64,000 nt of DNA, from NCBI GenBank assembly GCA_947646735.1, contig CANTFK010000107.1, positions 124,001-188,000 of the forward strand, written 5' to 3'. Positions 1 through 57,623 of this stretch are shown here, one piece after another; the stretch's first letter is position 1; each line of letters begins with the position of its first letter. The notes below the pieces were generated by a model. It did no database searches, was not told where the DNA came from, and saw only the letters and a list, made by a program, of their open reading frames with translations. The position numbers and the translations under genes were made by a program. This stretch comes from Peronospora farinosa (lineage: Eukaryota > Oomycota > Peronosporomycetes > Peronosporales > Peronosporaceae).

Positions 1-1
1 G

Positions 2-8344: not shown

Positions 8345-9182
8345 CAAAGAATACGTCTAGCACGAAAGGTTGTAAGCGATTGCCACAAACGCCTTATATT
8401 GTACAAGCATTTCATCGCAAGCTTTAAGCGAATCACCCCCGATTTATCAAATCTGTTTGGTCAGAATCATTAGCACCTTAGGGTGATAGCGCCTCTTAGA
8501 TTTTAGACATCCTGTACTCAAAAGTTCTTCGTCTTCAAGATCGATCCACGAAAGTATTTACGATTGACTTAATTGTCAATCAGTACATGCATGATACGCG
8601 TACATGAACGTTGTCAATTCCTTTGTCGAAGCACATAATCAGGAAGGTGATTTACTTTTTTCTTTTGCCACTTCCTAACGGCACGCATTCATATCGTCAA
8701 GATAGGAACCGTTTGGGAATAGTCTTGTTCACAACTTAACGTTCTCCAGGAATCAACACTCTATGTTACGTCTTTACTACTCCTACACAATTCGCGGCAT
8801 GTCAGTTTGCTATATCTACGCATTGATAAGGGGTTTGCTAGCACATATATTTTTAATTTATATATGTTTTGTTGCTGGGGTCCTTCGAAGCAGAGAGTGA
8901 TTACAACCTTCAGTATGCACCAGAAAAAGCCGATTATGGTGACAAGACATTTCCATTTGAAACACAAAACTCACCTTGATTGCAAAAACGTAAATGTTCT
9001 TTAGAGTCAATAGAGTTTTTTTCTTAGCTTATGTTGACTACGTCCTTTGAATCCTTCCATCATTTCCTGAGAAAGTAGTCACAAAAGGCAATACCGTTGC
9101 ATAACTTTGGTAAGATCAGGCTTTCAAACGCTAGTCTGTTGTCGTAGGAGCAGGTTCAAATTGATTCCGGCAAAAGCCTCGT
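8345..9182. other. Intergenic stretch, no supported gene
   Basis: About 840 bp separating the unknown two-exon gene from the effector locus. AT-rich, with only short unsupported reading frames and no recognised repeat. Confidence 0.5.
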
Positions 9183-11951: not shown

Positions 11952-11954
11952 AGG

Positions 11955-13043: not shown

Positions 13044-13159
13044 CTTGATAGCACTCGTAGTATTTCCCACGACCCGTCTCTCTGAGCGTGCGTGTGGTTG
13101 AGATGGTCCTTACTATGGGCCGTAATGATTTTCCTCACCTCTCCTAACATCATAGGGAG

Positions 13160-14179
13160 GTGGCAGAGCACTTGGTGCAGGGGCTTGGTGAACAATCCCT
13201 GGCCAATTTCTTGCATTGTCCTCCTGTGCAACATATTGCTCAGTTGGAGCAATTTGAGGCGTTTCTGCTCGGACAGCGCAGAAACGCGTCCGAGGCAAAC
13301 AGCCAAGCCACGGATGAGTCCATCAATAAGACTCAAGATGAGCTTAAGCTTGAGCAGGCACGGAATGAGGCGCTCAACAGAACTTTTGAGACGCTCTCTG
13401 CCCGGCCTAATCAACCGAGGCCCATTCGGATGGACCCTCCGAAGTTCGATGGAACTAGCCCTCACACGATTGTTCACTGGCTATTAGCAGTTGAGCAATG
13501 TGGAGTGGTGCAGCTCATAGAAGACGACACCAGAATGGTGTTGTATGCTCATGTCCAACTTGCGTGGCAAAGCGTCAGAGTGGGCAGACTCTGCGCTGAT
13601 GGAAAACGCTGATGCGTTTCCATCATGGACAATCTATAAAACAAAGATTCGCGCCATGCATCAGTCGCCTAACAACGAAGTGTTGCTTATGGCGCGCTTC
13701 TTTGGAGCACGAGAGGCGAAACGATCTCTGCAAGAATTTGTGCAGGAGATGCGTTCACTGTCGGCGTCCATTAATGCTGGTCCGTACTGAAACGTATCAA
13801 GGTGGCCACGTTCATGAATGGACTTAGGCACTGCCCACAGCGTCAGGCCTTTTTTAGATAGGGGCCAGCGACGATGGAAGAGTCAATTGACATTGCCTTA
13901 GTTGAGGAGCAATCCTACAACAGCGCCTCGGCGACAGCTTAGTATAAGCCGTCGGCTGAGAAGTCGGATGCCACTCCAATGGAGTTAGGCAATGCAGATG
14001 TGATCTGCTACAAGTGCGGCAAGCGAGGCCATATGATGGCTCGCTGCTATGACAAACTTTCTGCTGGTGCTAAGGCAGCCAGCAAGAAGGCTTTCAACTC
14101 GATGGGTGGTTCGAAGAATCGTGCACGTCGCACGGGCTCAGATTCGACCCCCGGTAAGTCGGGAAATGCGGGAGCGTAG
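13160..14179 (+). pseudogene. gag: gag remnant with CCHC zinc knuckle
   Basis: Frames at 13160-13612, 13545-13790 and 13979-14179 together form a capsid-like region (ARFFGAREAKRSLQEFVQEM) and a nucleocapsid knuckle CYKCGKRGHMMARC (14008-14049). At least one frameshift (about 13550-13610), a TGA near 13788 and a TAG near 13939 break it. Confidence 0.75.
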
Positions 14180-14326
14180 TAGGGCGGGATGCCCTACTGT
14201 CGCGGACTCTGAAGCTATCCCTAAGTTCAGAGTGATTGAACAAATGGGTAGCATAGTCCCTGAGGTTCCAAAAGGTCGGACCTCAACCCTTTTGGTCTAT
14301 AGCGCTCGAGTAAGAGACTATGACCA

Positions 14327-14689
14327 ATGATGACCCTTCTCGTTGATTTGGGTGCATCGCATAATTTTGTGAAATTCGTGGCTCTGGAAAAGATTCCGGC
14401 GAGTTATGAGTCGCTGTGCCAGGATGTCAAGCGAGAAGAGGCGACCGTTCGTTTAGCGAACGGCGCGCTCGTAAAATCAGAGGGAGTTCAAGTTGAACTC
14501 ACATCCAGCTTTAGTGAATTCTCTTGTAAAGAGAAGTTCACAGTGTTAGGTAGGGAGAGTCCGTATAACCTCATCCTGGCGTGCCTTGGTTGGCTAAACA
14601 CCTACCATGGATTGACTGGCGTACACGCACTGTCGCTAGCTCTACGCAAGACACTGGAAAGGATGTGCTCCTGCGAGAGGCTTATTTGA
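14327..14689 (+). pseudogene. Retropepsin remnant
   Basis: The frame contains LLVDLGASHNFV, the aspartic-protease loop of gypsy elements, followed by a beta-rich region with LANGALVKSEGVQVEL. The usual Ser/Thr of D(S/T)GA is Leu here. The later motif LGLPWL reads ACLGWL, with a frameshift nearby. Non-functional. Confidence 0.65.
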
Positions 14690-15090
14690 CTGATGCTGTG
14701 TTCAACACAGTCGAGGGTGCGATGACGGTATGTCAATCGACACCAGGAACTACCCAGCTCGAAAGGAGTGGTGTAGTTGGAAGTGCCCTGGCAGAAATCC
14801 AGGTGACACATATTCCTACCCAGGTAGAAAAGACTGGTGTAGTGAATGGGGCGATGACAGACAGTCATGCGTCCAATAGTCCTGCACAGAGCCGAGAGCC
14901 TGCGGCAGTTGATGGTGGGCTGACAGGAAGTCAAGCGCCACAAGAACCGCCACAGAGCCAAGAGTCTGGTGCGGTTGGAAGGAGTGCGTTAGCTGAGATA
15001 ACAACGACACCTTCTTCCAGGTCAAAGGTCCTGGTGACTCAATGAACGAGCACCAGACGTATTAAGACGATCAAGGGCACGTCGAAACGA

Positions 15091-15819
15091 GTGACCCTTG
15101 GATCAGTATCGGTCCAAGAGGACGGACCTACGAACGAGTTGTTCGTGGTCGTCGAAGACAAAATGCCGGAGGCATTCTCAGTTGAGGTGCTCCAACTTGT
15201 CTTGGCATCTGCCGAGGAGATGGTAAATATCTTGGAGATGACGTGGGATCTGTTTATGCCCGAACTAAAGGAAGGAAAGATCCACGAGATAGTCGCACCA
15301 GTTCCAGAAGAGAACGTGGTGGAATGTTGCTCTTCATCCACAATGGATGAGAGTGTCTTGGAGACCGACAAGAAGAAACGGTTCGCTGCTCAAGGCTGGG
15401 AAGTCTTGAAGGACAGCCCGTTCTATGATGTTCTGTGGAAACACCGTGATGTGTTTCCAGCAGAAGTGCCGAGCCGCCTACCGACCGATAGGGGCATCAG
15501 GCACGAGATTGACCTGGAGCCTGGCGCCAAGTATTGTGTGACCAGGCAATGGCCGTTGCCGAAGGAACAAGTCGATTACATCGATGAGTTCTTCGAAAAG
15601 TGAGCTAAGGCGGGACATGTACGTGAGAGCAAGTCGCCTCACTGCAGCCCGACCTTCTGTGTGCGTAAAGCAACAGGTGGATGGCGCGTGGTTCACGCTT
15701 ATAATAAGCTGAACACGGCCACCATTCCAGCTCAAACGCCGATCCCGCGGAAAGATGTTTTGTTGAATTCCATGGGAAAGTCAACTATCTTTTCCGCATT
15801 GGATCTGAAGGATGACTAT
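15091..15819 (+). pseudogene. RT N-terminal part, broken
   Basis: Carries the conserved region leading into the fingers of gypsy RT: RHEIDLEPGAKYCVTRQWPL (15499-15558), an in-frame TGA at 15601, then PTFCVRKATGGWRVVHAYNK and SKSTIFSALDLKDDY. The coding match stops at 15819, where a 1.5-kb insertion begins. Confidence 0.75.
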
Positions 15820-17310
15820 GTGGTGAAGTCGATCAAGAAAATGTGATCGACAATATCGAAAGTGATTATAATGTGGACCACTTACACGGCGGAAGTCATA
15901 TCCTATGGATTATACTTGGCTATTGTATGGGAGCGATCAAGATCTATTGATGAATGATCGCATAATCTATACTTGGCTATTGTATTGGAATGATAGCTTA
16001 TCTGGATCGATCATGTGATGGCCACGGTTGGCCGAGGAGTACGCGGCGGTAATGACGATCAGGGTGGGAGATCTCTCGATCGCAATCGTCGGCTGTGATC
16101 AGCAAGGGTGATCGTCGATCGTGACCTCGATCCAGAAAGCCGATCGCGAGATGTAACTGGTACAGATCGATCGTAACCTCGATCGACGATCGTGATCGAC
16201 AAGTGTGATCGACGATCGTGATCAACAAGTGTGATCGGCGATCATACCCTCGATCCAAAAAGCCGATCGCGAGATGTAACTGGTTACAGATCGATCGTAA
16301 CCTCGATCGACGATCGTGATCGACAAGTGTGATCGACGATCGTGACAAGTGTGATCGACGATCGTAACCTCGATCCAGAAAGCCGATCGCGAGATGTAAC
16401 TGGTTACAGATCGATCGTAACCTCGATCGACGATCGTGATCGACAAGTGTGATCGACGATCGTGACAAGTGTGATCGACGATCGCGACAAGTGTGATCGA
16501 CGATCGTGACAAGTGTGATCGACGATCGCGACAAGTGTGATCGACGATCGTAACCTCGATCCAGAAAGCCGATCGCGAGATGTAACCGATTACAGATCGA
16601 TCGTAACCTCGATCGACGGATCAAGATCGCGATGGTATCCGAAGTGGACCACATAACGAGATCTGATTTTTCTGAAAGAGACGACACGCGGCAGTAGGTA
16701 CTGTCATACAGATAGGCATAATCGTAGGATTTGGTATTGGATTGGTTAACATTAAATAGAGTTTCTTTTACTTCTAAGCACGCATGCAGACTTCTTTTCC
16801 GGGCGGATAACTTTGGCCCCCGACGATCAAGAGCTTCTGCTACGCTACGACAAGTGATATCCCTGGATTGTTTGGACAGGGATTACAAGAACTCTCAACC
16901 CACGCAAAACCCCCCTGCGATCGGACGCAGTATACAACGTAAAGGACAAGGCACAAGATCGAGACGGCTCAAGTGGTCAGAAGATCATGTGAAATCAAGT
17001 GGATCAAGTATCTACATTTGGATAAGGCGGTCTCAAGGCAGACCAGGGTGACTCATAGAGCACCCCCCATACAACTTTCGATCGCGTGAGGATTTTCCAC
17101 GTGATCGACCCCCCGACCAATCCCCAACCCTGGTCAAGTTCAGCATCGACTCAAGTCCACCGAGAAGAGTGCAGCCCGCCCTACCGACAGGTACACAAGG
17201 TGAGGAAGGAAAGTTACACGGATACGGGGTACCCCTCCTTTAGTCGGTCGTCTGGGTGCCAGTGGAGAGTCGGGATCACATCAGAAATTTTGTGATCGCC
17301 ACTCCACCAC
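15820..17310. mobile_element. 1.49-kb insertion inside RT, TIR-like ends, non-autonomous DNA transposon candidate
   Basis: RT homology breaks at 15819 (LKDDY) and resumes at about 17313 (YYQALMRD). The insert starts GTGGTGAAGTCGATCA and ends TGATCGCCACTCCACCAC, whose reverse complement is GTGGTGGAGTGGCGATCA; these are imperfect terminal inverted repeats. The host flanks ATGACTAT and AACTACTAT are similar but not identical, so the target duplication is uncertain (8-9 bp would suit a hAT or MULE-type element). No transposase frame is inside. The centre is the CGATCG-rich array at 16084-16625. Confidence 0.55.
16084..16625. repeat. CGATCG-rich nested tandem array
   Basis: A higher-order unit of roughly 120-170 nt (starting near CCTCGATCCAGAAAGCCGAT, with GATGTAACTGGTTACAGATC) occurs about four times. 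Inside it a 20-nt subunit, AAGTGTGATCGACGATCGTG, repeats in varying number. The density of GATC and of the palindrome CGATCG is extreme. Confidence 0.9.
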
Positions 17311-18061
17311 AACTACTATCAAGCTCTCATGAGAGATAATGATGTACCCAAAACGACAGTAAGCACTCCAAGCGGTATGCTGTAGGAGTGGCTTGTGATG
17401 CCACAAGGGTTGAAAAATGCTCCGGCAACATTCAACCGAGTAGTGGCTCACGTGGTGCGTCAGCACCGTGCCTGCGCGCCCCATTACTTTGACGATGTAT
17501 TCGTGCATAGTAGGGCGGAGGACGGTCTGAGCGCGATAGAGTCGCACAAGCGTCATTTAGACGCTGTGTTGCAGACTCTGGGTGAAGCCAAATTATACGT
17601 GAACTTGCAAAAGTGCGTAATAGGGGTCCCCGAGATACCTGTACTGGGCTGCATCGTAGGTGCACACGGTGTACGAGCAGACCCAGAAAAGGTAAAGGCT
17701 GTAAAGGAATGGCCAGTCCCACGTCATGTGAAGGATCTGCTCCAATTGCTTGGGATCGCTAGTTACTTGCATAAGTACAGCAAGAATTATGCGGAGCAGA
17801 ATAAGCCATTTTCTAAGCCTTTTGAAAAAGATTACATAATGGACTTGGTCAAAGGGGCAAGTTGATGCGTTCACATCAGTGAAACAATATTTTGTAGAGG
17901 CGCCGTTCTTGGCATTTCTAGACGCAGATAAGCCTTTTAGCGTCGTCTGCGTTGCAAGAAAGTATGCATTTGGCAGCGCGCTCATGCAGAAGGACGACCG
18001 CGGCATTGGTCGTGTCCTATCGTATCAGTCTCGTCTTTTGAAAGCCGCAGAGCTGAATTAA
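17311..18061 (+). pseudogene. RT C-terminal part and RNase H remnant
   Basis: Resumes gypsy RT with YYQALMRDNDVPKTTVSTPS, a TAG at about 17380, then LVMPQGLKNAPATFNR and the catalytic box YFDD (17485-17496). Connection motifs VLGCIVGAHGVRADPEKVKA and LLGIASYLHKYSKNYAEQNK follow. A frameshift or stop near 17863 precedes the RNase H start (FLDADKPFSVVCVARKYAFG), where the catalytic Asp equivalent (usually CDAS) reads CVAR. It ends at TAA 18059. Confidence 0.8.
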
Positions 18062-18289
18062 CCTGTGCATGACAAGTAGCTACTTTCAAATAAGTATGGC
18101 CTTGTCAAATTACTCAGGACTAACATTGTCGCCTGCTGTCGGATCATTTTAGTGGGCGGAAGGTTTCCCTTCCGTCGCACTTGAAAGCGAAGTTAAAGCG
18201 CTTAGTTACAGTGATGGCCTATTATGGCATCAGCTGTTACCTTGTGATCCATTAAGAATCTATGTCCCTCATGACACATATCTCAAGCT

Positions 18290-18929
18290 GATGATACTTC
18301 ACGAGTGCCATGATGCGCCATCTAGTGGGCATCTGGGCCGTTAAATGACATTCTTACGAGTTTCAGAGGAATTTTGGTGGCCCCAATGGGTGCCCAACTA
18401 TATTCTCTCTTGCGAAGAGTGTCAGCGCATAAAGCCTGCACCTTTTAGCAGTGCGCCACTGAAGCCACCGCCGATTCCACCGGGTTGTTGGAAGTCGGTC
18501 AGTTTGGACTTCATGTTTGGCTTACCGCCTGACCATAAAGGTAGGACGGGGCTCGTCGTCTTTGTCAACATACTGAGCAAGATGATGCATTTGGCACTAT
18601 GTAGAGCAAAGATCTCAGGAAAAGAAGCTGCCCTCTTGTTTCTGGACCACGTGTATCGACTACACGGGATGCCCGAGTCCATAGTATCGGATCGGGATCC
18701 GCGTTTTACGTTAAGCTTTTGGTGTTATGTATTTTTGAGTTTCTGGGACGCAAGCTCCACATGTCAACAGCTGATCAACCCCATACCGATGTCTAAACGA
18801 GCCAATCGAGTCGTGGCGGATGTATTGAGTACTGTAGCGACTCCTAAGGAATGGAGCAAGAAATTGCCATTCGTGGAGTTTACTATTGATAATAGTGTTC
18901 ACGCCAGTACGGGTGAAACACCGTTTTAA
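18290..18929 (+). pseudogene. Integrase remnant
   Basis: The HHCC zinc-binding part (LHECHDAPSSGHLGR, a TAA at 18343, then EEFWWPQW and CEECQRIKP) is followed by the catalytic core with SLDFMFGLPPD and IVSDRDPRF, giving the two catalytic Asp. The third acidic residue, normally in TDGQTERVNR, falls in PIPMSKRANRVV and is missing. Dead. Confidence 0.75.
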
Positions 18930-19405
18930 ATCAACGGACTGCGCCATCCTTGGACACCAGTCACGTTTGTGCGCAGCCCGAGTCTTAGTGTGAAAGGGCC
19001 ACTCACTTACTTCGCTCGGTGCGAATGCCAAAAAGGGCCAAGGTTGCCCTAGTGTCACTAATACTTTAGCAGTGGTCACGGTGTCAAAAAGGAGGCACGG
19101 CAAGAAATGCCAGAGCTCCTTGACGATAACACTGCAGCGTTACCAGCATCGACCATGAAAGACCTCTTGGAGGCATCATATGAGAGCTGGATGCTAAAGC
19201 GGAAGAGAAGCTCAGCGCTTTGTAAATGAGCGACTAGCCATCCCACGTAAAGTCCGTGACGCGATGGCAAGCGCACAGGACAAACAAAAACAATATGCAG
19301 ACCAGCATGGTCGAAAAAACAATGAACACTTTAGTGTGGGGGACAAAGTGCTATTAAGTAACTAAACATGCAATTTCTGTACTACCTGGTGGTACTACTA
19401 AGCTA

Positions 19406-20104
19406 TTGCCCCGGTTCATTGGGCCCTTTCCAGTGGTTGAAGAAGTTGGAGATCTAGATTATAGACTCACTCTCCCACCATGTATGAAGACGCACCCCGT
19501 ATTTTACGTGGGTCGTCTGAAACGATATGTTGATTCAGAAGAGATCACATATCCACATCGGTCTAACGAGACCGATGGTGACGTCGACAGTGAGTCGAGC
19601 ATCGATCAGGCGACGAGGAAGCCGATAGGCTCTCCGTATACGAACGAGGAGGAATCTGCGCTTGACGCGGGTCTCTCGTCACCTGTCGATCTAATAGATC
19701 CAAACGAAGCTTCAGGCGGTCATATCCCTGACGGTCCCTCTCCCTCACATTGCGCAGATCCGAGGTCAGTCGCGAGACTTGGAGATCTGCTACTTACTTC
19801 TTCAGTGCAGCGGACTCAGCCTGCGACTGAACAGCAGCAGGGTAGGCAGCCGCGAGTAGGTGGGCGTAATCGCCACTCCTATCGGGCGCCACCTGTGTTG
19901 GTGGACGCGGAAGGGAACATGCGCTTCCTTGTTAGAAGGCTGTTGGCCCACCGGTTTGTGAAGCGAAAGCTCCAAATACTGGTCCAATGGAAGGGTTACC
20001 CAACGAGCTTTGACTCATGGGAGACTCTTGACTCCTTGCGCGTCGACTTGCCTGAGCTGTTGGATGCTTATGTGAAGCAGCACCAGCTGACGTCTTTCTG
20101 CTAG
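19406..20104 (+). pseudogene. Integrase C-terminal GPF/Y region and chromodomain
   Basis: Starts in the GPF/Y module (PRFIGPFPVVEEVGDLDYRL, then HPVFYVGRLKRY) and, after an acidic/Ser linker, ends in a chromodomain (about 19919-20040, with LVQWKGYPTSFDSWE). Chromodomains of this class steer integration to particular chromatin. This 232-aa block is the longest intact piece of this element's pol. Confidence 0.75.
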
Positions 20105-20338
20105 GTCCGGATGGACTAGCAGAAGAAGCGTGGCGAGAATTAATTGGGGGTCGCTTACCGCCCATAATTTCATGCGCACGCTTCATGGCGAAGCTGATTC
20201 GCTGCGACCGCTTTTAGTTGCATCTTCATGCAAGGTAACACGGCGCCGAAGTTCAGCTTCATATTTGTCGGCTGTTTCGTTAGAAAGCAGCACGACTAGA
20301 ATTGGGAAATCACGACCAAGTGCTTTGCCCTGCTTTTT

Positions 20339-20971
20339 TCACAAAGGAAAGACGCTATAAAATTTATGAGCGTCAAGAGTGGCACGCTGCAAAAGCGCAG
20401 CACTATATCCCTTCGAGCTTATCCACTCGGATGGAGGTGAAATTGGTAGTAAGTCACCACTCACGTAACCGCCCTCGCGACGGCGGGCTAGTGAGGCCGA
20501 ACGTGTACTCGGTGGAGCTTTAATCTCACACTCACCTGAGTCTGACTCTTCGTTATGAATTGTCAAGACATCAGCCTGAGGAGTCACATCAGATTGAGTC
20601 GCGACTGCTTCTTTTGAAGTAGCGCGCTTAATCTTAGGTGCTGCGCTCGTAGGGGCAGGCGACGAGGACTTACCTTCATTTGTAGGAAGCATATAATCTT
20701 CCTAAAGGACGGGTGCCTTAATTGATGGGTACATATGTCCCATCAACGCGCTTTTCTCATCTCCACTTTGGGGTGATGGCAATGGTGATCTCTCATTGTT
20801 ATCTACAATCATAGATAGATCTTCATCCACATTATAGTGAGATGGAAGATTTGTTTCAAAGCCTGAAGCACTTTGCGACGGCTGCGAATTAACGCGGCGC
20901 GTGCGCTTGGTGCTGGACTGCATGGGCGCCTTTGCAGGCGACCCATCAGCCTTACCACGTTTCGGTGGCAT
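20339..20971 (-). pseudogene. Antisense reading frame between pol and 3' LTR (element at 11955)
   Basis: On the strand opposite to pol, ATG 20971 opens a Ser/Pro/Lys-rich protein (MPPKRGKADGSPAKAPMQSS at its start). It stops at 20702-20704 and continues in the same frame from 20701 to 20339. Apart from that one stop it spans about 210 codons. The composition suggests a disordered, basic-acidic protein. No family recognised. Position and orientation match frames in the other two gypsy assemblages (22952-24208 and 50938-51753). Confidence 0.45.
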
Positions 20972-21061
20972 GAGAATTGAGCAGACTAAAGCGGCGCGTT
21001 TATAACGGCTCGCAAGTCTCTGTCTCCTAGGCGATGTCTAACAAAATGTAAAAATCGTTCT

Positions 21062-21075
21062 AAAAGGGGGGATGG
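21062..21075 (+). other. Polypurine tract
   Basis: A purine run (AAAAGGGGGGATGG) immediately before the TGTA of the 3' LTR, the usual plus-strand primer site of LTR retrotransposons. Confidence 0.8.
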
Positions 21076-21674
21076 TGTAACAAAGCATCTAGTTTCACGT
21101 AAACATTAAGTAATATACTTAATGTAAGGTCTAAAAGCATCCATGATTACTTTTGATCTGTCACTTGGGTGTGATACACAAACGTGATCCACCCTCGTGA
21201 ATGTGATATCCATCAATGTATTCACATAGGAAGGTATGACGCTAGTTGAAGCTAGGCATCGCGACGTCTCAGTAGGACGTCATTCGCAAACTTAAATCTA
21301 TATGTAAGTTCATGCGTTAGAATACGCTTCTAAAGATTCGCGTATCCGATCTTTATATAACTAGCCAATCAGTAGTTTAGTTTTATATTTAATTATATTT
21401 CATTAAATATATTTCAGTCTTGAATTTCCTAAACGCAAAGCACCGTGCACGAGAAGCTGAATAAGCTTCTGCGTGACGTCGGTGACTTCTTGTTCAGAAG
21501 GTCGTTGCGCTCTGGCTTAAGCGAGAGGCAACTGGTGGTACGACTGCTTAAGCAGTCGACCAACCACACATCCACCATCTCACGCGAAGGTAAGACGGTC
21601 TAACCGCTTCCTCGTTTGTGCTGAAGGTGTGCGCTAAGTAGTACGAGGCAACTTCGTATAAGTGCCCGTCTACA
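21076..21674 (+). repeat. 3' LTR of the 11955-21674 gypsy element
   Basis: 599 nt, TGTAACAAAG to CGTCTACA. Matches 11955-13043 except for the extra 490 nt there. Contains the perfect palindrome CGACTGCTTAAGCAGTCG (21542-21559). Reverse-oriented relatives lie at 26314-26890 and 57126-57623. Confidence 0.85.
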
Positions 21675-22951: not shown

Positions 22952-24208
22952 TCACAGACTCTTCGGGACCTCATTGAAGACAACCTTGACGAAGCGGTTG
23001 ATTACGAAAGTGACACCGTCTTTGTGGGACCCGATGGGCCCCCTTTAGCCACCCTCACGGATGAAGATGACACTAGCCATTCACCGAATCCGTTCCCTGA
23101 ACGTGGTGCTGCAGATGCGCTAACAGCGTTACGTGACCCGCCTGACGTGTCATCAACGGTAACGGTTATCAACCCACTCGAGGAGCAGCAACAGCAGACT
23201 ATCGACGAAGGTGCCAAGCGCCAGACGAAGAATATGACAAGACTGCAGGACCACCGACAGTACAGGTTCAAGCCACCTACGGTGGAAGAGCGCCTAAAGG
23301 AAGCATCTGGGCATTCCCTTTCTGGCTGGACCATTGGGCCTGAGGCCATTTCGTCTAAGGATGTTGCCACGCGCACGGCACTTCTACAACAATACCTGGA
23401 ACCCCACATTACTACACAAAGTCAATACTTGGCACGCCTTAACAGGCAAGTGCGCGGTGCGCCAGTTCCTCCCATGCGGGGTGTTCCCATCCTTCTGTTC
23501 GCGAGGGAAACCGAGGACGAAGAAGACACGGATTTCAGCCGCTGGGCGCATTATGCGCGACGTTTAAGCAGCATGTGGGCCCTACGGGCAAGTGCCGATG
23601 TGGCAGATGTTCGACTCGAGCGGAAGATGCGTTACGATTACGCTAAATTGAAGACCCGGGGAAAATTGAAATCCCAACAAACGCATTATGCGTCTGCTAC
23701 CCAGCATCCCAATGTTTCGGCTACCCCTGTAGCCGCGAGTCCACGACAGGCCAAGGCCGTCAACTCGCCCACGCCCACCATTACTGGTGAGAAGCGGCAG
23801 CGCCAACAGGCTGACCCTGCGCACGACGCTCAAAAACGTCCACGGCGTATGGGCAGTCCTGCCGAAGGGGAATCTCAAACTCCCAGGAGTTCCACGACTC
23901 GGGATAACCCCGCCACTTTAGCAGATACTGGTTTTTACCATGGCGGCGACGCTTCTGCAGTAGACGCTCCACATGGAACTGAAGGTTCCCCTGCGCATCG
24001 AGCAAAGCCGGAGGCGGTCGGTGTATCGGCACAAGCTCATGCCGAGCTTGTTCAAGAGGTGCGGTCCCTACGTGAGGAGAGGCAGACGATGAACTTCCGG
24101 CCTGAGTCCCTGGAAGATAGTCGGACCCGAATGCAGCGTCAGCTTGACCTGTTGGTGCAGATGCTTCGTCCCGCGACAATGCCAATGGGCTCGGCGCGAG
24201 CGCCTTAA
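22952..24208 (+). CDS. Antisense reading frame overlapping the chromodomain end of a gypsy pol
   Basis: A frame open from 22952 to 24208 (about 418 codons), antisense to the surrounding pol and just inside its 3' LTR. It has no early in-frame ATG. An ATG at 22941 (MTPSHRLFG) is one frame off, so a start-proximal indel is likely. The protein has an acidic N-terminal part, a charged middle (TVEERLKEASGHSLSG; RRLSSMWALRASADVADVRL), a basic Ser/Thr/Pro-rich part and a C-terminal coiled-coil-like helix (VQEVRSLREERQTMNF). Its last 428 bp run opposite the still-open chromodomain frame. No family recognised. It may be a genuine accessory gene of this element group or a long chance frame. Confidence 0.45.
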   Translation, partial: SQTLRDLIEDNLDEAVDYESDTVFVGPDGPPLATLTDEDDTSHSPNPFPERGAADALTALRDPPDVSSTVTVINPLEEQQQQTIDEGAKRQTKNMTRLQDHRQYRFKPPTVEERLKEASGHSLSGWTIGPEAISSKDVATRTALLQQYLEPHITTQSQYLARLNRQVRGAPVPPMRGVPILLFARETEDEEDTDFSRWAHYARRLSSMWALRASADVADVRLERKMRYDYAKLKTRGKLKSQQTHYASATQHPNVSATPVAASPRQAKAVNSPTPTITGEKRQRQQADPAHDAQKRPRRMGSPAEGESQTPRSSTTRDNPATLADTGFYHGGDASAVDAPHGTEGSPAHRAKPEAVGVSAQAHAELVQEVRSLREERQTMNFRPESLEDSRTRMQRQLDLLVQMLRPATMPMGSARAP

Positions 24209-48965: not shown

Positions 48966-50303
48966 CCTGTAGCTCTTGTGATTTGATGTTTTACCAATAT
49001 GTGTGGGAACAGACTGTCTATTTGCCGTTATGGCTTACAAGATATTTGAAAGTCCGCAGCCATTCTAGTACCCAGGAGATGCTTACGAGGGCTGTGCAGT
49101 GCCGGTTGACGATGGTCTCCTCACAAATTTCCGTTGCTAGGGGAGGTAGAAGCCCATTACTCACATCCCTATCTCTTTGTGGTTCCTCGATAGTGACCAT
49201 TCGGAGTTGGCGAAGAAGGACGTGTTTGATTTCTGCTACCTCTTGCTACGTCAACGCACGTTCGTGCTAATGGATACGTCGGTTCCGCTGAATCCGGAGC
49301 GTGTTTACGCAGACGGAGCAAGCTATTTGCCATATTATTTCCAGGCCCGGCCATCGATGTCAGCGTTGTCGGGAAACACGTGCGTGATAGCCGCCCGCAC
49401 TCTCGGAGGTAGCTCCGGTGCCGAACGCGATAATGCTGCCTGTTTGTACAAAACCATTTGAGCAAATGACGAACCTACGTTTTGTAAAGCCGTCCAACTT
49501 GAACCTTCTGGCTTTTGATACGTACAATGTAGAACAAACGATGTCTTTAACACCGAAAGTAAATGAAGTAGCACCACAACCAAACATGAAATTTGTCATG
49601 CACATAACATTCCACAGTGGCTGTGGCTTTCTTTTTGCGCATGTACTATCCAGATCATACATAGACGGGAAATCACTACCGTCCTGTCCATCTGACCTCA
49701 TCAGCTCAAACGTCAAGTTAATATGAGTGGATTTACTCGGACATGCTGCTCACAATAACTTGATAGGTTGATAAGATCATTCAACATCAGTCAAATTCCT
49801 ACTATGCGCTTTGTTTAACAAATGCGCTAGCAAATGCACCACAGTATGACACCCAACACCAGCTTAATTTCCTTGAAACCAACCTGTCGACATTCATTAT
49901 CCATAAAGAATGTAAACACTGTTTTTGTCCCACGTATTGGCGATAATGATACGGTTCGCGATGTGCTCGGTCCCTTGGGATACTTCCGCGATACAGCTAG
50001 AAAGGTTACTATCCAAGAGCCAGGCGAGTTTGACGGTATTGATGTCTGCCCTTCCAACATGCAAGAGTCCGACAGCCAGTCAAGGTCACAAACAGCCTCC
50101 CCACTTTACATTTTGCCTGTAACGCACACGACCACGACAATGCTGATTATTACCGCGCTGATCGTATGGTCAGCTGCAAGCGCGGCATCCGTGATGCCTG
50201 TGCATGCCATCCGCAGCGCACACAAGTCCACTACATGGAATGTGACGAACACTCCCATCTCGGGCTCCAGCGTGAGCATGGATTCGAATTACTACAGCTC
50301 CGA
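48966..50303 (+). repeat. 1.3-kb duplicated unit, copy 2 (inverted relative to 10624-11951)
   Basis: Matches copy 1 in reverse with scattered substitutions and small indels. It ends inside the effector's coding start, at CTCCGA, where a short palindromic repeat and the LTR of the 50385 element take over. Confidence 0.85.
49177..49461 (+). pseudogene. Conserved reading frame in the duplicated unit, unknown, copy 2
   Basis: A 94-aa frame whose first 45 or so residues match 11478-11744, diverging afterwards through indels. The following frame 49418-49726 and the piece starting TPNTSLISLKPT near 49849 are also kept in both copies. Together they may be exons of a decayed gene upstream of the effector. 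No family recognised. Confidence 0.35.
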
Positions 50304-50384: not shown

Positions 50385-50839
50385 TTAATGGGGCACCCTC
50401 CGACTATACTGATAAGAGTATAGTCTACTTTCACTTATTACAGTGAAAGCAGGTGCCTAAATTGCCTCACGTACACGTGAGCAGAGGAAGGGAATCAATT
50501 AAACAAACGCTTAGAAGTAGGGAAAAAGAGAACTGTATTTAATATAGTTAACTATCTAATACAACTAATCTGTTATAACCTATGTTAACTATATTAAACT
50601 ACAACTATGTATGTTGATAACTTGCCCTCCACTCATTGGGCGCGTTCATCGGTCATTGGTCAGCGCGTTGGTTGATATGATGGCCCATCTCAATCAATGA
50701 TAGGGCATCTCCAACTTCAAGGAGATATAGGACAATATTATAAGAAAAGAAAATATTGTCAAATATTATTAGTTATAATAATATTTTATTGACACTTCAT
50801 ATAAGTGTCAATATTATGTAACGGGCTCACCCCGTTACA
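50385..50839 (-). repeat. 3' LTR of the 50385-57125 element
   Basis: 455 nt; ends CCCGTTACA at 50839, followed by the pyrimidine run CACCCCCCCT (the polypurine tract of the minus strand). Contains perfect hairpins, for example TTGACACTT/AAGTGTCAA (50789-50811). Confidence 0.9.
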
Positions 50840-50937
50840 TCACCCCCCCTCAACCAACAGTCACATTAGTGACTGTTTAGTGACTATGGGAAAGGAGCAC
50901 TTGTTGGGTTTTCTATTATTCCAACAATTTTCACGCT

Positions 50938-51753
50938 ATGACTAAGTCAATGCGCGTCGCTGCTAAGGCAGCTATGAGCTCGGCTGCACGCCTGTGTGCA
51001 GCCGCTACTGAGGCTTCACAGCCTCAGCCAGCAGACACATTAGTGTCTGCTGGAAGTCAACATCAGCCTGCAACGCCTGTTGCAGGTTCACGTAGCGCTT
51101 CGCCACGTGAAGATGTTAACCCAGAGTTAGTCGTTGACTACTCTGGTGAGTCGGATGACGCATCCGACTCAAAGCCACCTGTGTCACTCCCGGGCTCTCC
51201 CCGGGGTGATACCTCGTCGTCGAATGTTACGAAGAGGGATCGTGGTACATTGAGTGAATCAATGTACCGTGAAATGTTCGGGTCGTCTGATGTATCAGAC
51301 GAATCGCCAAACGAGTCGAAGGATATTGACTCGAATGGGGACCGTAAGGGTGATGTCAGTGCTTCTACTGACATCAATGCTCATAGTGTCGGTACTTCTG
51401 TTGACACTAATGCTCGTGGTGTCAGTACTTCTGTTGACACCACGCAGGAGGCTTTAGACCGCAACGTATTGCGTCTTCCTCCTGATCGCAAGCCATGGAT
51501 GCTACCTAAGCATCTGCTTGATCGTTGGTCTGGAAAGACCAACGAACGGTTTCCCATACCGTTGTTTGATGCGTCAAAGCTTCATGGCCTTGACGCCAGT
51601 GCGAAGAACTTTTGCACTGAGAACGACTATTACATCGATGTGTTTCTTGAACATCGATGGTATGGCCCACACAAGAAGCGTGAGGCTGACGCGTTCCTCC
51701 AATATTGTAACGCGTTTATCACCAACGTTTTAAACGTTGGGAAAGAGGCTTGA
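50938..51753 (+). CDS. Antisense reading frame inside the gypsy element (271 aa)
   Basis: ATG 50938, intact to 51753, on the strand opposite gag-pol and just inside the 3' LTR. It encodes an Ala-rich start, a long Ser/Asp/Glu-rich low-complexity middle with a TSVDTNA-type repeat, and a more ordered C-terminal 75 residues (WMLPKHLLDRWSGKTNERFP; NDYYIDVFLEHRWYGPHKKR). No domain recognised. It is the cleanest of the three antisense frames and retains an ATG, which favours a real product. Its sequence is full of short perfect hairpins. Confidence 0.5.
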   Translation: MTKSMRVAAKAAMSSAARLCAAATEASQPQPADTLVSAGSQHQPATPVAGSRSASPREDVNPELVVDYSGESDDASDSKPPVSLPGSPRGDTSSSNVTKRDRGTLSESMYREMFGSSDVSDESPNESKDIDSNGDRKGDVSASTDINAHSVGTSVDTNARGVSTSVDTTQEALDRNVLRLPPDRKPWMLPKHLLDRWSGKTNERFPIPLFDASKLHGLDASAKNFCTENDYYIDVFLEHRWYGPHKKREADAFLQYCNAFITNVLNVGKEA

Positions 51754-52288
51754 TTTCAAAGACTTTATGCTAGCCGCAATAAGTTTGAGAAACGAAGTAC
51801 GTCCGGTGCATGCTATCGTTTGCACCGGTTATCTAGAGAGGCAGGCCTGTTATACCTCTCTTGGGGTGACCCATGCCCGGGGTGCCTGAGCACCTCGTCA
51901 AGAGCGCCTAAGGAGGCGTACCTCCTTACTGAGCCCTGATGGAGGGCTCGCATCTCTTCTGAAATGCGTGAAGGGATTGCTACTTTGCAATCCCTTTACG
52001 AGCGCGCTGGGCGTAAGTAGGGATTGCAAAGTAGCAACCCTTCACGAGCGCGCTGGGCGCTCGTTTTCCGATGGTCCTTCTTCACCATCGGGTGTCCCTT
52101 GTCGTACTGTTCGACAAGGCCCGAAACGTCGGCCATGAGTTGGGCCCGAGGTTACCAGCAAGCCGCCGAAGGCGGATAGCCACTCCACCGGACGAGATAA
52201 CTCGTCCGACGTCCCTTCACCTCGCGGTGATTTAGCAAGCGTTACACGAGGAAGCGCTTCCCACCATGAGAGTCCACCAGCGGGTGCG

Positions 52289-52753
52289 GTGGTGGAGGGA
52301 AAACCCTGTCCGATTCTTTCATCGGACTTGTCTGCTGAGTTAGACGGGTTTGCCCGTGTAACTCGTGAGCTACGTTGTGATGTTGATCACGAACGGGATA
52401 AGCTTCGCCGCTTAGAGGACATTGTGCGACATCTTGGGTTTGACCATGGTAAGTCTCGGGCAAACAATGTTGTCGCACTATTGGAGAATGAATGGCGACT
52501 TCATTCTCTAAGCAAGGAGCTGGCGACAGCTCGTCAGGAGATCGTCCAATATCATGGGAAGATCTCATCTCTTCACGACCAGGTATCGAATCTGGTTCGT
52601 GACAACAAGAATCTGAAGGGGATTCTTGAGAGTAATGGCTATCTCGTCGTTCGAAGAAGCCGCGTACTGAACGTACGGACGAAGACGTCCCACGTAAAAC
52701 GTAGGATGCGTACGCATCCTGCGTGGCAACTCGATCGTGTATGCGTTTCCTAG
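52289..52753 (+). CDS. Second antisense reading frame, coiled-coil (154 aa)
   Basis: Follows the 50938 frame on the same strand. Residues about 15-115 form a coiled-coil-like helix (HERDKLRRLEDIVRHLGFDH; LSKELATARQEIVQYHGKIS). Its last 190 bp overlap, in antisense, the integrase C-terminal frame (52565-53278). The antisense frame at 22952-24208 also ends in a coiled-coil-like helix, so the two antisense frames here may be parts of one protein broken by stops between 51754 and 52288. Confidence 0.4.
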   Translation: MVEGKPCPILSSDLSAELDGFARVTRELRCDVDHERDKLRRLEDIVRHLGFDHGKSRANNVVALLENEWRLHSLSKELATARQEIVQYHGKISSLHDQVSNLVRDNKNLKGILESNGYLVVRRSRVLNVRTKTSHVKRRMRTHPAWQLDRVCVS

Positions 52754-53278
52754 GCGGCGCAATACACGAAACGGGCCGATGTACTTGGGCAACAATTTAT
52801 TGCTGCCCTCGTTGGTCACTACATGTTTAGGTAGGTTTACTGTTGACAGTAAAACTAATTCACCTTCAATAAATGTCTGAGCATTTGTCCTTCCATTATT
52901 GTCTGCGTTTCTTTTTTGCTTATCCACCGCTTCTGTGATGGAGTCTTGCACGAAACGGACTACCGCTTCACGAGTCAGCAGGAAATCCTCAGCTGACTCG
53001 TTGCTTTTGGCTGCAGTGCATTTTGAATGCACTGCAGAGATATCGATCACTGATTCAGCGAGAACATTACTGTTCTTACTTGTGATACCTCGAACGATGC
53101 TGATATCTTCAGCATCGTTATCAGTAAGAGCGTCATCGCTCTTACTTTCCTCCTCTTCACCGAAGTCGAATGGTACGACTTCGGTTACTTTCGCGTCGTC
53201 CCTAACGTGGTCGCGTGATGAGCAAGAGCCAGATTGGTTCTCGCTCGAGCGAGTCTCTCCCCCTTTAGTTAGAGTCAC
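52565..53278 (-). pseudogene. Integrase C-terminal GPF/Y region with acidic extension
   Basis: 237 aa. An acidic Ser-rich part is followed by EGELVLLSTVNLPKHVV, KLLPKYIGPFRVLRRLGNAY and RTHPTFYVGRLRPY, the GPF/Y module of gypsy integrases. No chromodomain follows. It is separated from the catalytic core by stops or shifts around 53280-53470. Confidence 0.75.
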
Positions 53279-53321
53279 TCTCTACTAAGGTCGGGACACG
53301 TGGATGGCAAAGGCCATTTAC

Positions 53322-54153
53322 TTAGAACGGTGTATGCTTCGTGGACGCATGCACTGAGTTGTTGATGGCGAATTCGATCATCGACAAAAACTCACTCCAA
53401 CTCGTGAACGAGTAGACGTACCCTCGAAGAGATACTTCGAGGACGCGATTGGCGCGTTCAGTCTGACCATCAATCTGGTTGGTCAGAAGTAGACATTGTG
53501 AGCCGTGTTCCAAGTGTTTGGAACACGGAACGCCAAAACTCAGCCGTGAACCGGGGGTCCCTATCGGACACAAGTTTACGGAGTAACCCGTGCAATCGAA
53601 AGATTGTATCGATAAACACTCGAGCACAGCCCTCTGCTGTGATCGACTCAGGTAAAGCAACAAGATGTACCATCTTGCTGAACCTGTCTGCAAACACGAG
53701 AATACCATTATTCCCGTGAGCGTCTTTAGAGAACCCAAAGACGAAGTCCATTGATACGGACTCCCAGCACTCTGCCGGAACAATGTCCCGTTCACGCTTT
53801 AGGATCGGATAGAAACCATCTATCAGATCCATGGACGAAAAGATGGTACTCTTAGACATACCATTTATGATTACGTCCTTTCTCGGTATCGGCGTTTGCG
53901 CCGGTATCGTTGCAGGGTTCAGCTTATTGAACGCGTGTACTATCCGCCACCCTCCTGTGGCCTTGCGCACACAGAAAGTCGGAGAGCTGTGAGGTGAAGT
54001 TGACTCCCTCACATGGCCCGCTGCTAGGCGATCGGCAAAGAACTTGTCGATCGCCTCGACCTGTTCCCGAGGCAGTGGCCACTGCTTCATGACACAATAT
54101 TTTGTGCCAGGAACAAGATCGATCTCGTGTCGAGTACCTTTATGCTTAGGCAA
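53322..54153 (-). pseudogene. RT N-terminus fused by deletion to integrase core
   Basis: From 54153: RHEIDLVPGTKYCVMKQWPL, PTFCVRKATGGWRIVHAFNK and SKSTIFSSMDLIDGFYPILK (RT fingers). At about 53770-53800 it passes directly, in frame, into integrase: CWESVSMDFVFGFSKDAHGN and LVSDRDPRFTAEFW, then after a frameshift DGQTERANRVLE. The RT catalytic YxDD, RNase H and the HHCC finger are deleted. Confidence 0.8.
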
Positions 54154-54650
54154 CTCGCACGGTACGGTTCAATAAAAACATCCTTGAATTTGACCAAATC
54201 CTTATACAAAGGATTTGACTTCAGAGACTCCCAGGATTGCGATGTATATCGCTCAGTCCGAGTCTTCTTATCAAGGACACTTTCGTCCATTGATGAGCTG
54301 CTGAGAACCCGTTCGTTCTGGGCAAAAACTATTGCTGACCGAATGTCAGTCATGTACTCGTCCTCTGCGACGAGAACACAGATCTGCTTGACTTTGCCAC
54401 TACGCAGATCACGCAAGAACCTTTTAGGTTCTAGCGTAGGCAACTGAGTTATCTCCAAAGTTAACTTCGAAGGCGCGATCAGATCAAGTGTATAAGCGCC
54501 TACGTTTGATCCGTCATTAACCAAGACGTTCAACGTCTCGGTTACTTCTTGGGGACTTATTCCCTCAGTAATTATTTCCTGGGGACTTATTCCCGCAGGC
54601 TCGATGGAACTTGTTCCATCGACTTCCTCTAGCTGTGGTGGCGCAACCAC
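54087..54650 (-). pseudogene. Protease-RT linker region of the gypsy element
   Basis: 187-aa frame with acidic linker sequence and SWESLKSNPLYKDLVKFKDV, the conserved lead-in to RT, overlapping the RT frame by a frameshift at about 54090-54150. Confidence 0.6.
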
Positions 54651-54671
54651 AGCGAGATCCTCTATGATAAA

Positions 54672-55328
54672 CTATCTAGTTGATCTAGGATTACCGTGTT
54701 GCCGCTTTTGGGCAACCGGTTTAATTTTCGGTGAATGCTGCCCTCTAGGCGAGCATTCATGTTCCGGTCCACTCGACTTATTCGAGTGGTGGACCTTCGG
54801 CGCTGCCTGTGCTTGTGCACAGCCACCGGCAGCTTGCTGTACAGCGTGACTGATTGTCACGCTGAGTTCTTGTGCAGTCGTACTAACGACCGAACCACAA
54901 TTGAGGCCATCACACTCACTCGTAGTACATTCACACGCTTTTAACCGCTCCAAGACGTTCATCAGATGGCCATCTGATGAACAAGCGGCAGGCATCTTCA
55001 CGGTTCGATGCTGCCAGCTGACCCATGGCTCGTACCTATTGAGCCATGGTAATCCTAGGATGACATCAAATTTGTCATCCAGATCAAGTACGATGAAATC
55101 ATCATCGTACTTTTTGCCTTCAAGCGTGTAGTGAATTCCCACTACACGTTTCTTTGCTGTTACGGATGTGCCAGTTGCAAGGCGCACCGTCATCCTCGTT
55201 GGAGGGGTCTCGCGCTCAACATATTTGAGCCTACGATTATCTAGCGATTGGCGTCGAACAAAGTTGTTCGAAGCCCCACAATCAACTAGGGCGCGAAGTG
55301 ACATGTTCTTTGTCACTTCAATCTTCAA
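54672..55328 (-). CDS. gypsy retropepsin domain
   Basis: 218 aa with the aspartic-protease loop LRALVDCGASNNFVRR, FIVLDLDDKFDVILGLPWLN (flap and ILGLPWL) and the WxxRTV strand. The catalytic Asp is present; the usual Ser/Thr after it is Cys. Intact as a frame, normally cleaved from a Gag-Pol polyprotein. Confidence 0.75.
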   Translation of the reverse strand: MKIEVTKNMSLRALVDCGASNNFVRRQSLDNRRLKYVERETPPTRMTVRLATGTSVTAKKRVVGIHYTLEGKKYDDDFIVLDLDDKFDVILGLPWLNRYEPWVSWQHRTVKMPAACSSDGHLMNVLERLKACECTTSECDGLNCGSVVSTTAQELSVTISHAVQQAAGGCAQAQAAPKVHHSNKSSGPEHECSPRGQHSPKIKPVAQKRQHGNPRSTR

Positions 55329-55471
55329 GGTGATGAGGGATACCTCATCACTGGGAGCGGCATCACACAGTGACTGTGTGTTGGGAGTAACCCTCGTTAA
55401 GAGTCCCGCGAACTCTCTTGACGTTGCTGGATCAGTAGGGCGCTCCGCCCCTACTGACCCCGACCGTTTTT

Positions 55472-55873
55472 TTATGGTCCACCACGTTGTTGCGATTTCG
55501 CAGCAACGTGGGACCCACGTCTCTGGCTCTTCTTGGCAGACGGACGATCGTCACTCCCAGTGTTACGAGACACTGGGCGTAGGGCACTACACTCATAAGC
55601 GTAGTGGCCCAACTTCTGACATCGATTGCACTTTTGCAATCGCTTGTACCCTGGAGAGCGAGGTCGCTCGCTCTCTACATAGGAGAGGTCCATTGGTTCT
55701 GGACCTCCGCCCTCCTGTCGTCTCGGTGGACGATAGGATCCCGAGTGGACGTGAGCCTGTTGTAGTCTAAAGTCCTCCTGTTTCGCTGCAGAGATCGCTT
55801 GATCCAGCGATTCTAGTTCCAAGCGGAACAGGTGGGTCTTAACAGGACCATCTGTCAGACCCTTGATGAACAC
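55472..55873 (-). pseudogene. gag: gag C-terminal part with CCHC knuckle
   Basis: Capsid end (FIKGLTDGPVKTHLFRLELE; QEDFRLQQAHVHSG) and nucleocapsid knuckle CNRCQKLGHYAYEC (about 55600-55640), followed by a basic tail. The region 55874-56300 upstream keeps capsid-like sequence but with stops. Confidence 0.75.
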
Positions 55874-56300
55874 AGTAGCCTGCGTTTGTTCATCGATTGG
55901 GTTCAGTACGATACAGCTAACGAGGTATCGTACGTGTTGGGCATAAGCGTGTATATCACGCTTACCCCGTTTTAAATCCAGGAGCTCAGCCTGAGCCCTG
56001 AATTCGGCGCGAGGCGGTTCAAATGTGTGTTTGAGCCGCGCCTTGAAGACGTCATACGTTGGGAAAACGTATGAGTCGTGCAGTTTGAGCCCTAAGGCCC
56101 AAGCTTTGGCACGTCCAAGTTCGACATGGCGAACTTGACCTTCATCGCATCTTCATCGATGCGACGAGCCTCAATGGCATCGTCGAGCTCGACGAACCAT
56201 CTTAACAAGAAATCGCTTTCGACTGCCTTACATCAATCTTCAAGGACTCGGGTAGACGTGTATACGTCGACCCGGCAGCAACAGCACTAGCCTGCTGTTG

Positions 56301-56653
56301 TCAAAACAGTTCAGACTGCTGAGCACCCTGCTGCATCAACAAGTCAGCTTGTTGAGCGCCTTGTTCTCTTAACAGGTCAACCTGTTGAGAACCTTGCTCC
56401 TGTAGCAAGGTGAGTTTCTTCACAACTTCGTCAAGTTCATGCTGTTTGAACTTGGCGATGGTTGCATGTTGGTCGTCTCCGCTAAGAGAGAGCAACATGG
56501 CACCAACGGCAGGGTTGCCGATGGTTTAGCCATACGCTGAACCGCATTCCATTCGAGGTCACTCAAATGGCGGAAATCATCACGCGTTGCGTGATGACGT
56601 TCATCACCCGCTGATTCCATAGTGGATGGTGCGGTGGTCGCTGAACGGAACAC
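56301..56653 (-). pseudogene. gag: gag N-terminal part with QEQG-type heptad repeats
   Basis: Two overlapping frames (56653-56420 and 56498-56301). The second carries tandem copies of LLREQGAQQADLL-like units, a short coiled-coil repeat, and a stop or shift separates it from the capsid. Confidence 0.55.
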
Positions 56654-56667
56654 GAAGTGCTACCAGG
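56651..56667 (-). other. Primer-binding site
   Basis: Immediately inside the 5' LTR the minus strand reads CCTGGTAGCACTTCGTG. TGGTAGCACTTCGTG would pair with a tRNA 3' end of the form ...GTGCTACCA. Confidence 0.7.
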
Positions 56668-57125
56668 TGTAATGGGGCACCCTCCGACTATACTGATTAC
56701 AGTATAGTCTACTTTCACTTATTACAGTGAAAGCAGGTGCCTAAATTGCCTCACGTACACGTGAGCAGAGGAAGGGAATCAATTAAACAAACGCTTAGAA
56801 GTAGGGAAAAAGAGAACTGTATTTAGTATAGTTAACTATCTAATACAACTAATCTGTTATAACCTATGTTAACTATATTAAACTACAACTATGTATGTTG
56901 ATAACTTGCCCTCCACTCATTGGGCGCGTTCATCGGTCATTGGTCAACGCGCTGGTTGATATGATGGCCCATCTCAACCAATGATAGGGCATCTCCAACT
57001 TCAAGGAGATTTAGGAACAATATTATAAGAAAAGAAAATATTGTCAAATATTATTAGTTATAATAATATTTTTATTGACACTTCATATAAGTGTCAATAT
57101 TATGTAACGGGCTCACCCCGTTACA
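56668..57125 (-). repeat. 5' LTR of the 50385-57125 element
   Basis: 458 nt, TGTAATGGGG to CCCGTTACA (plus-strand reading). Contains the perfect hairpin GACTATACTG/CAGTATAGTC (about 56686-56709). Confidence 0.9.
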
Positions 57126-57623
57126 GTCTTAACTCCGCGTGCGGTGGTGGTGGTGTTGGTCGGCGCTTGAAGCGCAGTACCACCGTTGTCGGTCGCTTGA
57201 AGCGATCCGCACAACGAACTTCTAAGAACAAAAGCTTTACTTGCTACTCGCAGAAGCTTATTCAGCTTCTCATGTGCAGTGAGCAGTAATTAGGAAATTT
57301 AAGACTGACTTATATTTAATAGAGAATTTTTTTATAAAATGTAAACTACTGATTGGTCAAATGTAAATACGTAGAAACGTATCACTACGTGCGAGCTTTA
57401 ATGTATATTAAGCTCGCTGATGACGTTCGTCTGTAACGTCATCATGACGCTTGGGCGTCACTCCCGTTGAATGTGAATCCATCCATGGATATCACATCCA
57501 CGAGGGTGGGTCATATTGATGTGCCTCACCCAAGTGGGAGATCTAAGGTACCAAGTACCCTTTTAGACCTCCCCTTTAAGTATCAGATATTTAACAGATT
57601 CGTGTAACTATTAGCCCGTTATA
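57126..57623 (-). repeat. LTR remnant, reverse orientation, family of the 21076 LTR
   Basis: Matches the reverse of 21076-21674 and parallels 26314-26890 (for example AAGCTCGCTGATGACGT and ATGTGAATCCATCCATGGAT). It abuts the 5' LTR of the preceding element, which therefore seems to have inserted into or recombined with it. Confidence 0.65.

Follow-up and report, generated by a model that had tools for sequence, protein, structure and literature searches.

Short perfect hairpins saturate a Ty3/gypsy retrotransposon family of a Peronospora downy mildew, with template switching as a possible origin

The stretch of DNA considered here (the window) comprises 64,000 nucleotides of the downy mildew Peronospora farinosa (contig CANTFK010000107.1, assembly GCA_947646735.1). 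One part of it, coding for ornithine carbamoyltransferase, shows 100% identity to a protein from that species. Positions 50386-57125 are occupied, on the minus strand, by one copy of a multi-copy Ty3/gypsy retrotransposon family (Table 1). The two long terminal repeats (LTRs) of this copy are ~455 bp long each and share 98% identity, and the LTR termini read TGTAA...TTACA in most of the other copies. The latter, termed siblings and labelled L0xx, were gathered from the host genome (46.85 Mb in 274 contigs), in which an LTR query finds at least 44 matches, a lower bound with 40 of 634 candidates scored. The family resembles Ty3/gypsy retrotransposons in its LTRs, its CCHC gag, its protease, reverse transcriptase (RT) and integrase (IN) order and its 5-bp target duplication. 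CCHC, RVP_2 and rve domains follow each other in this sequence within the window copy, the zinc knuckle (zf-CCHC, E 0.00039) lying at the curated Pfam cut-off. In sibling L015, the FDD motif, by which the RT is putatively assigned, shares one frame with the integrase motif. The window copy misses ~1.45 kb of RT-IN compared to the fullest siblings, with a deletion junction at 53782/53783. The gag frame of a sibling encodes 405 residues, and among the matches listed most homologues possess PF03732. Gag has 202 relatives, and among the 120 listed, those with an organism given belong to Peronospora matthiolae; relatives of the element were also sought in viral contigs, where none was confirmed. 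The antisense region, split in the window copy, forms a single frame of 615 residues in L015. The target-site duplication is found in four of eight copies inspected (L009, L010, L012, and L016), and none is seen in L011, L014, L015, and the window copy.

This family is built to a large extent of short perfect hairpins. The initial annotation of the window quoted 13 of them, all of which are exact reverse complements, and its estimate of the excess over chance is borne out and was understated. With loops of 0-20 nt, the window copy harbors 78, 44, and 22 perfect hairpins with arms of at least 8, 9, and 10 bp, respectively, the means of 20 dinucleotide shuffles being 1.8, 0.45, and 0.05. With loops of 3-12 nt, the numbers are 86, 69, and 40 for arms of at least 7, 8, and 9 bp, against 3.45, 0.83, and 0.27 expected from 60 dinucleotide shuffles of the same copy. 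The window copy, with its RT-IN loss, is not the richest one. At an arm threshold of 8 bp with 3-12-nt loops, sibling L015 contains 109 hairpins (0.95 expected, 60 dinucleotide shuffles). Counted without overlap, its hairpins with arms of 7 bp or more number 127, or 16.5 per kb, and cover 37% of the sequence. Each of 13 copies or part-copies holds 38 to 117 hairpins (arms of at least 8 bp, loops 0-20), for shuffle means of 0.85-2.65. The pairing recurs at the same sites among siblings: of 134 hairpin sites across 11 copies, 92 are perfect in at least five copies and 28 in a single one.

The saturation spans LTRs, coding and antisense-coding parts alike, with the lowest density in pol (10.0 per kb) and the greatest in the LTRs (17.5-19.7 per kb). 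Coding need had been discarded as a cause from the outset, rightly so: the pol frame of L015 exhibits 51 hairpins, while 100 synonymous codon shuffles yield a mean of 3.2 and a maximum of 8. The original description of a chain running from LTR to LTR is accurate in that hairpins are dense throughout the element, but not as to its limit, as the density continues past 57125 into the adjoining repeat at 57126-57570 (3 hairpins with arms of at least 7 bp, 0.3 expected).

Table 1. Location of the parts of the element, of selected hairpins and of the adjoining repeat, in window positions
Feature	Position	Strand	Remarks
3' LTR	50386..50839	-	outer end lacks the terminal (final) CA present in siblings
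LTR hairpin TTGACACTT/AAGTGTCAA	50789..50811		second occurrence in the other LTR at 57075
Antisense open frames	50938..52753	+	50938-51753 and 52289-52753; best Pfam E not below 0.0088
Hairpin AAGGGATTGC/GCAATCCCTT, loop 6	51971..51996		exact
Pol C-terminus, Tf2-1-like SH3 domain	52565..53278	-	PF24626, E 1.5e-15
Hairpin, arms 12 bp, loop 3	53011..53037		loop variable among siblings
Hairpin, arms 11 bp, loop 5	53093..53119		exact
Hairpin, arms 10 bp, loop 4	53123..53146		exact
RT start fused by deletion to integrase core	53322..54153	-	rve, E 5.3e-8
Hairpin CCTCGAAG/CTTCGAGG	53422..53442		loop inverted, one base off, compared to siblings
Aspartic protease part of pol	54672..55328	-	RVP_2, E 6.6e-10
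Hairpin CATCAGATGGCCATCTGATG	54960..54979		exact
Gag region	55472..56653	-	several broken frames; CCHC zinc knuckle at 55472-55873
5' LTR	56670..57125	-	from LTR pair comparison
Adjoining repeat, probably LTR of a related family	57126..57570		67-69% identity to the ends of the 13-20 kb element

Hairpin enrichment was surveyed in five gypsy families, the focal one included (arms of 7 bp or more, 3-12-nt loops), each sequence being compared to 60 dinucleotide shuffles of its own. L030, L032, and L037 form one of these families, and L029, L031, L039, and the 22-27 kb element of the window form another. All five are enriched, the four non-focal ones more weakly (~3-12-fold): 9-12-fold in the L030 family, 11-fold in L038, 5-9-fold in the 13-20 kb gypsy element of the window, and 3-6-fold in L029, L031, and the 22-27 kb element, L039 being unclear alone at 2.8-fold as 3 of 60 shuffles reach this value. 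A comparison with the 13-20 kb element, proposed at the outset, sets the focal element apart: with arms of at least 8 bp, the two parts scored (12491-15990 and 16700-21420, leaving out the satellite) display 2.3 and 1.1 hairpins per kb, versus 10.2. In the window's long interspersed nuclear element (LINE), 4 hairpins are found for 4.6 expected (0.9-fold), in two copia pieces 3 for 1.8 (1.7-fold) and 1 for 1.6 (0.6-fold), and the gene at 65-2725 reaches 0.8-fold. This control on non-gypsy elements is small, with one LINE and two copia pieces; a zf-RVT profile search for more LINE members returned no match, nor did its controls, and the LINE control is therefore the single copy of the window. 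Longer mixed stretches of the window range from 1.6- to 2.0-fold, with 1-12400 exceeding 60 of 60 shuffles.

In the three other gypsy families compared to L015, those of L029, L030, and L038 (the 13-20 kb family being left out), hairpins are located at mostly different sites. Hairpin centres of the L015 pol are common to L029 in 0 of 49 cases, to L030 in 3 of 46, and to L038 in 4 of 33, for about 1 in shifted controls. L030 and L038, the closest sister families, have 5 of 22 centres in common (control 0.4). Two conserved pol sites keep a hairpin in L015, L030, and L038 with compensating bases. They correspond to the HPETDGQ motif of the integrase and to a WPxP motif downstream of the RT core, one of them with a K/R exchange.

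Several other features of the window were recorded. Among the matches listed (40 scored out of 1188 candidates), the other full-length places have 74-81% identity to the repeat at 57126-57570. The matches of this repeat on contig C238, at 252607 and 255485 and at 261258, 264136, and 267014, are spaced by exactly 2878 bases, a regularity suggestive of a tandem array. Within the 13-20 kb gypsy element, four direct repeats of 120 bases occupy 16101-16650, partly head to tail. At 23024-24208 (plus strand), as well as in L031, another gypsy family possesses a long open frame antisense to gag-pol. The open frame at 9756-11012 (minus strand) is presumably akin to oomycete WY-type secreted effectors. 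Stretches of this region and of 48999-50303 are inverted repeats, 93-98% alike and ~37-39 kb apart.

The stems are nearly strictly Watson-Crick and have abrupt ends. Most arms are 8-10 bp long and most loops 4-5 nt, with a peak at 4 nt. In L015 (loops 3-12), the excess of arms begins at 4 or 5 bp and extends to 12 bp (93, 45, 26, 36, 34, 23, 10, and 6 arms of 5 to 12 bp, respectively), and arms of 13 or 14 bp are absent. In its 109 stems, the first outside position is unpaired by definition, and the next ones pair at frequencies of 0.26, 0.31, and 0.25, which is chance. Stems with one mismatch are not in excess in L030 (3 versus 2.5) and L038 (1 versus 1.0), despite their excess of perfect stems. 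On the coding strand of L015, one-mismatch stems comprise 16 A-C, 8 G-U, and 19 other cases, and G-U is not favored over A-C (p 0.15); the corresponding cases in sister families are very few. Private changes in decaying copies lean slightly towards G-U (98 versus 72 A-C, p 0.055), a lean that gauges mutation more than tolerance. Predicted RNA folding yields mean z values of -8.2 and -8.4 on the two strands of L015 (ten 300-nt windows), the corresponding values being 0.2 for LINE sequence (six windows) and 0.6 for genes (five windows). Selection for a single folded RNA would not produce such a pattern of stems.

Comparison of the siblings reveals how hairpins are lost and, more rarely, altered. 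Private substitutions in 11 copies affect stems (319/24462, 0.0130 per site) as much as the remainder of the sequence (825/59793, 0.0138 per site); inserted copies lose their hairpins through ordinary decay. Gap-free clusters of at least three substitutions were then collected from the 11 copies against the reference copy L011. Of the 116 clusters, seven agree over 9-20 nt with the reverse complement of nearby sequence; they fall at four sites, one of which recurs in four copies. Random letters placed at the same positions give such matches with a mean of 0.62 and a maximum of 3 over 60 runs. Inverted loops are borne by siblings whose arms are nearly intact. In L018, a 20-nt match includes an inverted loop and an arm G-C pair where 10 other copies have an A-C mismatch. 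By eye, two siblings also show inversion of the loop ATAC/GTAT, and L022 an inverted copy with a deletion. In the window copy, the loop at 53422-53442 reads TATCT on the coding strand, the reverse complement, one base off, of the siblings' AGATT. A survey of loops at 181 sites (overlapping definitions counted) provides 13 minority loop rows differing by at least three bases from the commonest loop. One of them, TTGAC/GTCAA, was set aside, the match being that of a near-palindromic arm with its own opposite strand. Among the 12 kept, five (four sites) are reverse complements within one base, none is a reverse, and two are complements, in symmetric loops; reverse-complement matches of 3-nt loops are weak evidence, and the loop ATTA/TAAT, recurring across subfamilies, may stem from recombination and not from repeated inversion. 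Shared variants are commoner in loops (40/846). Taken together, these small sequence scars between copies suggest that copying errors templated by one hairpin arm help make the hairpins.

One LTR hairpin exists in two compensated states among siblings; the window copy and one L014 LTR bear mixed forms, which recombination between subfamilies can explain. The six double-change pairs of the within-family covariation analysis all belong to this hairpin, counted in both LTRs (slid controls, 0-2). The LTRs of L014 and of the window copy also resemble chimaeras of two subfamilies, which suggests template recombination. At the protein level, residues on which outgroup families agree deviate somewhat more often in stems, in L015 (18/102 versus 40/380, p 0.059) and in L030 (24/69 versus 110/537, p 0.013).

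Template switching during replication of the element, which would both make and perfect the hairpins, is the best explanation for these observations, with close to an even chance of being correct. It was among the causes put forward by the initial annotation, and it gains support from the sibling loop inversions, one of them accompanied by the change of an arm mismatch into a pair, and from the strict, abruptly ending stems. A nascent strand of the element would fold back through a few paired bases, copy ~5 bases off the opposite arm, or across the loop, and then return. Over many replication rounds, chance quasi-palindromes would become perfect hairpins, broken arms being mended and loops sometimes flipped. 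The polymerase is presumably the element's own RT, as enrichment is confined to gypsy families among the elements sampled; reverse transcription as the stage of the switches is inferred on this basis. Protein constraint would merely thin the hairpins in pol, and coding constraint would account, under template switching, for a density lower there than in the LTRs. In a toy model free of selection, with a seed of 3 bp, 5 bases copied and 0.40 switches for each point mutation, hairpins with arms of 7 bp or more reach 16.6 per kb, and the arm-length profile resembles that of L015, with 78, 39, 24, 48, 35, 16, 10, and 3 arms of 5 to 12 bp. Most of its other settings fit worse, by eye. An earlier version with exponential copy length fitted poorly.

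A number of results weigh against template switching as the maker of the hairpins. Its main weakness is the scarcity of footprints in siblings: seven clusters at four sites stand beside 1144 private substitutions in the 11 copies, and their rate is far below what the toy model needs, even in L013, the LTRs of which are 99.8% identical. The siblings, however, are largely decaying copies by which the rate of the replicating lineage may go unmeasured. Counted by sites, the matching clusters amount to 4 versus about 0.6 under the random-letter control, and the reverse, complement, and far-region controls, each at 0/116, make no fair comparison, as the arms, being palindromic, match a reverse complement for free. 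Loop inversions, the direction of which is given without outgroup polarisation, may follow from existing hairpins and not reveal their origin. Through private changes, 307 stem pairs ceased to be Watson-Crick and 2 were restored, and stems are not significantly poorer in shared variants (55/2362 versus 137/4879, p 0.24). One-mismatch stems are in excess in L015 (43 versus ~3 expected) and in the 22-27 kb element (5 versus 1.5), which is read here as decay. The fitting toy model is one of 15 settings, judged by eye and devoid of coding selection. Finally, amino-acid identity is overall about equal inside and outside stems, and between L038 and L030 it is greater in stems (0.78 versus 0.74); an arm asymmetry of protein conservation, sought as a sign of copy direction, was not found.

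The main rival explanation is selection on both strands, which would keep sense and antisense RNA, or single-stranded complementary DNA (cDNA), folded, and which appears rather unlikely, albeit a serious contender. Such folding may, for instance, serve packaging or prevent antisense transcripts or small RNAs from pairing with the element, and template switching may supply its variants. It would forbid G-U pairs, as their counterpart on the other strand is A-C, and it agrees with the strong folding of both L015 strands next to the LINE and gene windows, with the 615-residue antisense frame, and with arms that have their mode at 8-9 bp and stop at 12 bp, as a stability threshold would yield. The compensatory pairs between families at the two conserved pol sites and the two-state LTR hairpin also speak for it. 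Conversely, sites are mostly unshared between families, stems enjoy no significant protection among siblings, and 25 of the 126 intervals from one hairpin to the next are longer than 75 nt. Furthermore, L013, with its nearly identical LTRs, has ~20% fewer hairpins per kb than L015 and transposed nonetheless.

Selection for RNA structure on the sense strand alone, for packaging or for translation control, is improbable. The strong folding and the preference for 4-nt loops speak for it, but G-U pairs are not in excess over A-C in one-mismatch stems (8 versus 16), both strands fold alike, and hairpin sites turn over between families; structure for packaging, raised in the initial annotation, is disfavored on the same grounds in this simple one-strand form. 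The third cause raised there, a role of the hairpins as small-RNA precursors, is hypothetical. Still somewhat less probable is a host DNA process, such as cruciform repair or chromosomal arm-to-arm conversion, that would keep inverted repeats perfect. Nearly strict Watson-Crick pairing and loop inversions would befit such a process. Inserted copies, however, mutate equally inside and outside stems, with the 2 restored pairs set against 307 lost, and in the same genome the LINE, the copia pieces, and further sequence from the window remain at 0.6-2-fold. An artefact of biased composition, coding constraint, or assembly can hardly be entertained: nothing was found in its favor, neither dinucleotide nor synonymous shuffles reproduce the hairpins, and the same hairpins occur in copies on many contigs.

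The RNA genome of the yeast Ty3 element has reportedly been structure-mapped. No further member of the Ty3/gypsy group is known to be saturated in this way. Maize transposable elements are said to harbor miRNA-like (microRNA-like) secondary structures in small regions, discussed together with small RNAs, unlike the present hairpins, mostly 17-30 nt long and set end to end. In the open-access literature, with subscription journals mostly outside, no description of a retrotransposon saturated with perfect hairpins was found. In Phytophthora, retrotransposons and inverted repeats feed 25/26-nt and 21-nt small RNAs (PMC3804510); in contrast to the present case, a hairpin-built retrotransposon is not described in the available part of that report. 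Template switching has been put forward as the mechanism behind palindromes in mitochondrial coding sequences of Nematomorpha (PMC6649704). As in the present family, perfect inverted repeats are found there within protein-coding genes, with positions gained and lost between species. Those are mitochondrial, with arms of up to 284 bp, whereas the present ones belong to a nuclear LTR element, with arms of 7-12 bp, ~16 hairpins per kb, and an extension to LTRs and antisense frames (PMC6649704). A study of template switching reports that "compensatory mutation + loop inversion" and "loop inversion only" can each be explained by one switch, the latter class being enriched in its RNA genes (PMC8794818). 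Those RNA-gene hairpins and the present ones have footprints in common, namely loop inversion, compensation over several bases, and arm correction; there, DNA replication is concerned, whereas here a whole retroelement is involved and reverse transcription is the presumed stage (PMC8794818).

Template switching as a maker of perfect stems has so far been argued mostly from scattered events. With ~130 hairpin sites, copies datable by LTR divergence, and sister families of graded density, the origin of perfect stems becomes countable. On a wider and more tentative reading, held with less assurance than template switching itself, the replication machinery of a gypsy clade continually rewrites its own genome into perfect hairpins, and mutation, not function, would have shaped over one third of a coding element of 8 kb, at a certain cost to its proteins. 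If RT is the cause, the family would offer a natural test bed for fold-back copying. If selection is, the overlapping frames would be overlaid by a code for the folding of both strands that is unusually complete. In both cases, the family warns that compensation between bases in sequences of this kind does not necessarily point to a functional RNA.

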